Part shown: positions 28,148 to 28,625 of the stretch, one piece after another
Layout: each line of letters starts with the position of its first letter
Position numbering within the stretch: position 1 is the first letter of the stretch
From: Pseudacidovorax intermedius
Lineage (GTDB): Bacteria > Pseudomonadota > Gammaproteobacteria > Burkholderiales > Burkholderiaceae_C
DNA: 64,000 nt
Direction of reading: 5' to 3'
NCBI RefSeq assembly: GCF_003350475.1
Contig: NZ_QQAV01000003.1
Span: 1 to 64,000 of the forward strand
Program-made: the position numbers and the translations under genes
Notes under the pieces: generated by a model
The model's database searches: none
What the model was told of the DNA's origin: nothing
The model's input: the letters and a program-made list of their open reading frames with translations, nothing else

Positions 28148-28224
28148 TGGTGCGGCTGGCAGGAATCGAACCCACGACCCCTTGGTTCGTAGCCAAGTAC
28201 TCTATCCAGCTGAGCTACAGCCGC
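28148..28224 (-). tRNA. tRNA-Arg (anticodon ACG)
   Basis: This 77-nt tRNA has acceptor stem GCGGCTG/CAGCCGC, then A and an encoded CCA. The anticodon loop gives ACG and the T-arm contains GGGTTCGATTCC. It lies 73 bp downstream of the split tRNA-Ile, on the same strand, and probably shares its transcript. Confidence 0.95.
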
Positions 28225-28297: not shown

Positions 28298-28625
28298 TGG
28301 TAGGCCGTGCTGGGCTTGAACCAGCGACCAAAGGATTATGCCTACCACTTCAGCTTTCGCTGCCCGTTTCCGGTTCGTGGTCTGGACTCTGTCTTGCCTT
28401 TCGGCCTTCCCGTCGAGTCTCTACACGTTCCCCTTTCGGGGCTTCGCTCGGCGTTGGCCTGGCGCTCGGAAGAGCACGTTAGCGTTCGCCGAATTTGAGA
28501 AGTTCTACTTCAAGGCAGAGTGAACTTACCTTGAGCAACCCGTCGGGCCTCATCCGTTGGCGCCGAGGCACCTTTAGGCTGCTGCCCTTCAAGTCCTCTG
28601 CTCTAACCAACTGAGCTAACGGCCC
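28298..28625 (-). tRNA. tRNA-Ile (CAT, tRNA-Ile2) interrupted by a group I intron
   Basis: The 5' exon is 28592-28625 (GGGCCGT acceptor, D-arm, 5' half of the anticodon stem, ending GAGGACT). The 3' exon is 28298-28340 (CATAATCC, T-arm GCTGGTTCAAGCCCAGC, ACGGCCT, A, CCA). Joined, they form a full tRNA with loop CTCATAA and anticodon CAT. Its T-arm and anticodon arm resemble tRNA-Ile2 rather than elongator Met, so the anticodon C is expected to be changed to lysidine by TilS. The exons are separated by 251 nt inserted between T33 and C34. Confidence 0.93.
28341..28591 (-). ncRNA. Group I self-splicing intron in tRNA-Ile(CAU) anticodon loop
   Basis: The 251-nt insert has the conserved group I core in order: AATTCGGCGAA-CTAA near 28480-28498 (P), CAACGCCGAGC near 28445-28460 (Q), GTGTAGAGACTCGACGG at 28410-28426 (R) and AAGACAGAGTCC at 28384-28395 (S). 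The 5' exon ends ACT, and GGT in the intron can form a 3-bp P1 with the conserved U-G wobble at the splice site. The intron ends in G, as required. Several GAAA-capped hairpins (for example GGCCGAAAGGC and CAGCGAAAGCTG) fit peripheral and P9 stems. The core closely resembles, from memory, the Azoarcus tRNA-Ile intron. No homing endonuclease gene is present. Confidence 0.92.

Follow-up and report, generated by a model that had tools for sequence, protein, structure and literature searches.

A group I intron with an apparently rewired periphery splits the tRNA-Ile(CAU) gene of Pseudacidovorax intermedius

Positions 28591-28341 on the minus strand of the window, the whole 64,000-nucleotide stretch of DNA analysed here, are a group I intron in the tRNA-Ile(CAU) gene, and the coordinates are exact. 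As a complete explanation of the locus, we strongly favour an intron with a rewired periphery that would be co-transcribed with tRNA-Ile2 and spliced by guanosine between U33 and C34, its catalysis being predicted from sequence comparison. Group I introns of tRNA-Ile2 were already known; what appears to be new, as far as our searches reach, is a separate lineage combined with a rewired periphery. One anticodon loop would then host introns of two distinct lineages, inserted three bases from each other, and the family offers a natural example of a ribozyme that lacks a well-studied contact and seems to have another in its place. The evolution of ribozyme peripheries becomes directly testable on RNAs of about 250 nt.

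Known introns of tRNA-Ile2

The intron in Azoarcus BH72 pre-tRNA-Ile(CAU) interrupts the same tRNA as the window intron. Its core is similar, its 5' splice site has a U.G pair, it is inserted after CAU, and it forms two tertiary contacts, L2-P8 and L9-P5. Its guide pairs with the triplet CAU (PMC6274277, accessible text), and its GAAA/11-nt receptor contacts join nucleotides 24-27 to 146-151/160-164 and 189-192 to 60-65/80-84, a related receptor being used by IC3 introns (PMC3494683, accessible text). Closer to our organism, group I introns in the tRNA-Ile2 genes of several species of Acidovorax and Burkholderia were identified manually, tRNAscan-SE 2.0 not having been designed to detect them (PMC8450103, accessible text). 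These share both the tRNA and the lineages with the window intron, and the accessible text of that paper gives no insertion site, structure or sequence comparison for them. They very probably belong to the same family as the window intron, judging by the sequences recovered here, which include introns between U33 and C34 in Paracidovorax (L171), Burkholderia sp. (L218) and Paraburkholderia (L161). We found no description of the insertion site, guide or periphery of such tRNA-Ile2 introns in the accessible text of the open-access literature (including PMC8450103, PMC3494683, PMC3984707, PMC6274277 and PMC4033280), subscription papers and intron databases lying outside that search.

The tRNA-Ile(CAU) gene is interrupted between U33 and C34

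When the sequence was reread, the two tRNA halves and the 251-nt insert, with its ends, were as the first-pass annotation had described them:

28592..28625, minus strand: tRNA-Ile(CAU) 5' exon, tRNA positions 1-33, 34 nt (ARAGORN on joined exons and unique excision)
28341..28591, minus strand: group I intron, 251 nt, between U33 and C34 (empty site, unique excision, covariation)
28341, minus strand: omega-G, the terminal G of the intron (G in 59/59, required by the cutting expressions)
28298..28340, minus strand: tRNA-Ile(CAU) 3' exon, from C34 to CCA (ARAGORN on joined exons and unique excision)
28148..28224, minus strand: tRNA-Arg(ACG), 73 bases downstream, a conserved neighbour (same-genus comparison)

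ARAGORN reported no tRNA at the unspliced locus. From the joined exons it recovered a 77-nt tRNA with a CAU anticodon, which is the complete tRNA-Ile2 that had been predicted. Only one single-block excision restores the tRNA, namely the removal of 251 nt after its 34th base, which is U33. The same excision fixes the terminal G of the window intron; a G likewise ends all 59 introns of the wider set described below (49 aligned and 10 held out), where the expressions used to cut the introns already required it. The insertion lies in the anticodon loop, as in canonical IC3 tRNA introns, and not between positions 36 and 37, where the Azoarcus intron sits.

Comparison within the genus provided empty sites which, with the unique excision, bear out the proposed splice site after U33. 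Among 15 Pseudacidovorax genomes, our own included, six carry the intron and nine an uninterrupted gene. The uninterrupted gene adjoins tRNA-Arg(ACG) in eight of these nine; in the ninth (G007) it is parted from tRNA-Arg by an insert of 32 kb. The intron-bearing locus is 98-100% identical to the window in four other genomes and 95% identical in a fifth. In a tree of the downstream flank, all six intron-bearing genomes fall into one clade (100/100), so that the distribution in the genus is accounted for by a single gain or by a small number of losses. This tree covers 13 of the 15 genomes and leaves out G005, which matches over only about 250 bases downstream, and G006, whose upstream flank is the same as that of G005. 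The downstream side matches between our genome and five intron-free genomes of the genus, and the flank upstream of the gene (5' of 28626) found no match in those five; a genus tree from the upstream flank was rejected for that reason. Within the genus, intron-bearing genes have the pair A28-U42 and intron-free genes G28-C42. Co-conversion of the exon flank with the intron was considered and rejected: A28-U42 also occurs in family members with an intron at the 36/37 site, so no transfer need be invoked.

Comparative evidence settles the group I identity

The first-pass annotation had called the insert a group I intron and proposed a covariance search. With Rfam RF00028 the core was indeed matched in the window, at 27.3 bits (E 0.0002), but this lies below the gathering score of 50, and over the whole genome the same model returned nothing at E<=1, so that the Infernal test alone would have been weak. 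Since the gene is also missed by ARAGORN, genomes of this kind can seem to be without an essential tRNA. It is the comparative evidence that settles the identity of the intron. A core pattern scan of genome and viral contigs, together with genus and family searches, yielded at least 64 loci, some genomes contributing twice, and from these we drew at least 49 distinct introns inserted at exactly U33/C34, which form the alignment set. The pattern loci listed number at least 144, comprising at least 41 of the 33/34-site type, at least 3 cut versions, at least 80 that are tRNA-Leu-like and at least 20 that are other or truncated.

Fitted to the 49 introns, a group I structure that includes P3 and P7 has 96.5% of its cells paired, and 26 of its 53 pairs change on both sides. 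Cells with both-side changes number 272; slid controls reach no more than 52 and shuffles average 84.8, none of the 500 shuffles coming as high. The structure contains the P3/P7 pseudoknot and P4-P6 with a conserved core, and full-intron folding of the window intron gave a z of -2.4. The core elements are:

28497..28502, minus strand: P3 5' strand (1/6 P3 pairs covaries, the rest invariant)
28448..28493, minus strand: P4 and P5, the P and Q elements (49-intron structure)
28430..28441, minus strand: P6a hairpin (49-intron structure)
28415..28419, minus strand: P7 5' strand, the R element (1/5 P7 pairs covaries, the rest invariant)
28406..28411, minus strand: P3 3' strand (49-intron structure)
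28385..28389, minus strand: P7 3' strand, the S element (49-intron structure)

Ten further introns were held out; these are homologues rather than independent cases and were found by a pattern that contains the guide and the P2 apex.

An invariant guide probably specifies the 5' splice site

28535..28541, minus strand: internal guide sequence GGGUUGC, of which GGUU pairs with exon GACU to form P1 (invariant 49/49)

The guide occupies intron positions 51-57 and is unchanged in 49/49 introns, and the pairing of ACU with GGU suggested earlier falls on the middle of this invariant heptamer. The helix that it forms with the exon, P1, has four pairs, two of them G.U, and places a U.G pair at the 5' splice site in all 49 aligned introns and in all ten held-out ones. 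When the exon was folded with the P1 region, P1 was present in the minimum free energy structure in 49/49 and 10/10 cases, compared with 195/980 in the shuffled-spacer control. In the minimum free energy structure of the complete window intron there is no P1, the guide being engaged with a segment inside the intron. Being invariant, P1 gains no covariation support. P10 has three pairs in 30/59 introns, two in 16/59 and one in 13/59, the window intron having the single pair.

The most informative comparison is with tRNA-Leu(UAA) introns (n=66, six of them from viral contigs; mostly from alphaproteobacteria and Acidobacteria), all of which were found by the same core pattern and share the same core. 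Unlike the 33/34-site family, these introns splice after U34, have mostly a short P1 and carry the guide GAGUGC, against GGUUGC at an equal distance to P2 in the 33/34-site introns. A shift of the guide by one base relative to the tRNA-Leu introns would explain splicing after U33 rather than U34.

As a separate observation, most of the P2 apex AAGUUCACUCUGC (28515-28527) could pair with GCAGAGGACUU of the 5' exon, which might offer the exon another partner; the apex contains, at intron position 66, a second site able to pair with GACU (AGUU).

The usual P2-P8 contact is absent and another may replace it

28542..28591, minus strand: P1 extension with receptor-like internal loop CCUAAA (28578-28573) / CAACGG (28559-28554)
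28516..28527, minus strand: conserved P2 apex AAGUUNNCUCUG, replacing a GAAA loop (46/49 by free match)
28396..28405, minus strand: short P8 hairpin GCC-GAAA-GGC, without the receptor of other tRNA introns
28364..28373, minus strand: P9.1 hairpin CCG-GAAA-CGG (stem covaries)
28351..28362, minus strand: P9.2 hairpin with GAAA loop (49-intron structure)

Canonical IC3 tRNA introns, of the Azoarcus and cyanobacterial type, combine a GNRA loop on P2 with a receptor in P8, and the 33/34-site family does not. A GAAA-capped P2 occurs in 0/59 of its members, as against 59/66 tRNA-Leu introns under a strict stem rule and 66/66 by plain string, and under the stem rule some GNRA string is found on P2 in 4/59. 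A receptor-like CCU..ANGG in P8 is likewise found in 0/59, compared with 60/66 tRNA-Leu introns. The elements of the first Azoarcus contact pair (24-27 to 146-151/160-164) are accordingly absent from the family. Twenty other Burkholderiaceae introns (tRNA-Ile 36/37, Arg, Thr and Leu) retain them, with GAAA on P2 in 20 and the P8 receptor in 18. The P2 apex AAGUUNNCUCUG is conserved as listed above, the ten held-out introns having been found with that very string.

Two other elements are present jointly in the 33/34-site introns. A GAAA-capped P9.1 is found in 49/49 and in 10/10 held-out introns, against 3/66 tRNA-Leu introns and 0/20 of the other family introns; another GNRA caps P9.1 in five further tRNA-Leu introns and in one of the 20. 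The P1 extension is 44-59 nt long and carries a CCU..AYGG motif in 46/49 and 9/10 (8% of shuffles), the receptor-like motif being missing in 4/59 (L036, L177, L216 and the held-out L282). In one member (L233) the loop reads CCUAAG/UAUGG, which we take to be the consensus 11-nt receptor. Because these two elements occur together while the usual P2/P8 pair is jointly absent, we infer that the P9.1 GAAA touches the P1-extension loop. This is weakened by the three tRNA-Leu introns with a P9.1 GAAA, in which the guide starts 9-12 bases into the intron and there is no long P1 extension. A second canonical IC3 feature is a GNRA loop on L9 with its receptor in P5. In the 33/34-site family the GAAA of P9.2 is invariant, and the P5 loop looks receptor-like in some sequences, by eye only.

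More tentatively, and with less than even confidence, we consider that the clamp itself may have moved, the P9.1 GAAA docking in the P1-extension receptor instead of L2 in P8. Since the P1 extension is lost once the 5' splice site has been cut and P10 has formed, such a contact might secure that site during step one and be released for step two; it could act as a built-in switch that offsets a P1 of four pairs, two of them G.U.

Two intron lineages in one tRNA

A tree of 144 introns, 58 of them from the 33/34 site, places 57 of these 58 in one clade (100/96), set among the tRNA-Leu introns that surround it; the exception, L289, lies outside on a long branch. Five introns inserted after CAU in family members (L071, L073, L074, L079 and L085) group instead with tRNA-Arg introns (100/96), the Azoarcus intron not being included in this tree. 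The bootstrap is unsettled and several long branches meet, which leaves the exact neighbour of the clade unsure. The separation of the two tRNA-Ile intron lineages is the safer part of the tree, and taken at face value it implies, most simply, that the same tRNA was invaded at least twice. The contrast with the Azoarcus position drawn in the first-pass annotation is upheld, the after-CAU introns forming a clade of their own. Its further suggestion, that of a related intron with a shifted P1, gives way in light of the tree and of the P2, P8 and P9.1 counts to that of a separate lineage with a different periphery.

As that annotation stated, tRNA introns of this kind are known, but they are not rare. 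By DNA similarity, a 33/34-site intron was found in 9/399 genomes of the family (our own and L063-L070). The pattern of guide and P2 apex, which misses variants and therefore sets lower bounds, found it in at least 16/399 sampled genomes of the order, each of the 16 having the intron at U33/C34 on inspection, and in at least 2/369 of the class, our own being included in both. An extra pattern match (L280) was set aside as chance, and a family-search match (L091) looked like chance as well. Carriers include Paraburkholderia, Caballeronia, Paracidovorax, Limnohabitans, Polynucleobacter, Aquitalea, Vogesella, Silvimonas and Halotalea.

Judged by eye from their flanks, group I introns of Burkholderiaceae also occur in tRNA-Thr, tRNA-Arg and tRNA-Leu (L072, L078, L075-L077 and L080-L090), L085 being a tRNA-Ile intron at the other (36/37) site.

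Splicing and AUA decoding

Group I introns are spliced by two guanosine-initiated transesterifications. Here the intron would be transcribed as part of the tRNA-Ile2 precursor, in which exon bases 30-33 (GACU) would pair with the guide GGUU and set U33 opposite a G at the 5' splice site. Exogenous guanosine is predicted to cut after U33; the terminal G would then line up the 3' site, and U33 would be joined to C34. An anticodon loop would exist only after splicing, and TilS, for which the genome has a match above the cut-off, would probably make lysidine thereafter.

The first-pass annotation had held that the cell depends on correct splicing. The draft genome (5.98 Mb, 29 contigs) gave 48 tRNA hits, among which there is no second Ile(CAU) and no Ile(UAU), the other CAT anticodons belonging to two tRNA-Met genes; a search of the genome with an intact locus found only this gene and two tRNA-Lys halves. 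AUA decoding therefore probably depends on the splicing of tRNA-Ile(CAU), as far as gene content can tell. Genes for Ile(GAT) and Ala(TGC), which as a rule are part of rRNA operons, are both absent among the 48 hits, so the assembly is incomplete for tRNAs and could hide a further Ile(CAU) copy; dependence is accordingly probable rather than certain.

Alternative readings of the locus

This incompleteness is what would leave room for a degenerate intron in a gene no longer in use, the functional tRNA-Ile(CAU) being encoded at another locus. Against it, no second Ile(CAU) was found in the draft, the core and guide are intact, the locus is nearly identical in five other genomes (98-100% in four, 95% in the fifth), and compensatory changes run across the intron family; we regard a dead gene as extremely unlikely. 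Just as unlikely is a common lineage with the Azoarcus-site tRNA-Ile introns, the splice site having slid by three bases. Such a slide would fit the shared tRNA and the similar core, but in the tree, which leaves the Azoarcus intron outside, all five introns of the 36/37 site join the tRNA-Arg introns (100/96) apart from the 33/34-site clade, and the two types differ in P2, P8 and P9.1.

An actively homing element, whose presence would shield the tRNA from island integration, is a reading suggested by the island repeat of G007, which crosses the intron site (GGACT|CATAATCC). Homing is opposed by the lack of an endonuclease-sized open reading frame, the longest open stretch over the 49 introns being 83 amino acids. 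A shielding effect is opposed by att-like 3'-half fragments in 5/30 intron genomes, on which ground we rejected protection of the tRNA from islands by the intron; the reading as a whole seems to us very improbable.

Islands, plasmids and viral contigs

A pattern for the 3' half of the gene gave raw matches in at least 168/200 genomes of the family and matched twice in 7/30 intron-bearing genomes. The extra copy is att-like in five of these (L351 in G111, L352 in G045, L354 in G449, L356 in G664 and L357 in G534) and a tRNA-Met in G418. In G625 (L353, L314) it is a second intron-bearing gene, so that this genome apparently has two such tRNA-Ile2 genes, of different exon type. In G111 the first base of the duplicate coincides with that of the 3' exon, and the intron-bearing gene lies 9.8 kb away. 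In G007, a 32-kb island (C66:47282-79466; L116, L117) lies beside the intron-free tRNA-Ile2; its repeat of 53 bp runs across the point where the intron would insert, and next to the far copy stands an ORF that by eye resembles a tyrosine recombinase.

Related introns also occur on mobile DNA. With the window as query, PLSDB gave matches of 60-80% identity in 1258 plasmid records and of 90-95% in one. In pCTX-M3 (L092, 3937-4233), the only one inspected, a related group I intron interrupts a tRNA-Leu(UAA) gene that is missing from the annotation and lies near aac(3)-IId. According to the accessible text of a 2014 review, every phage intron known at that time lay in a protein-coding gene (PMC3984707). 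In IMG/VR, 24 contigs (L250-L273) have same-core introns in tRNA-like genes, of which 8 are Leu-like, 2 are tRNA-Ile2 and 14 are other or truncated. By eye, L250, L260 and L271 depart from the usual core downstream and may hold coding sequence.
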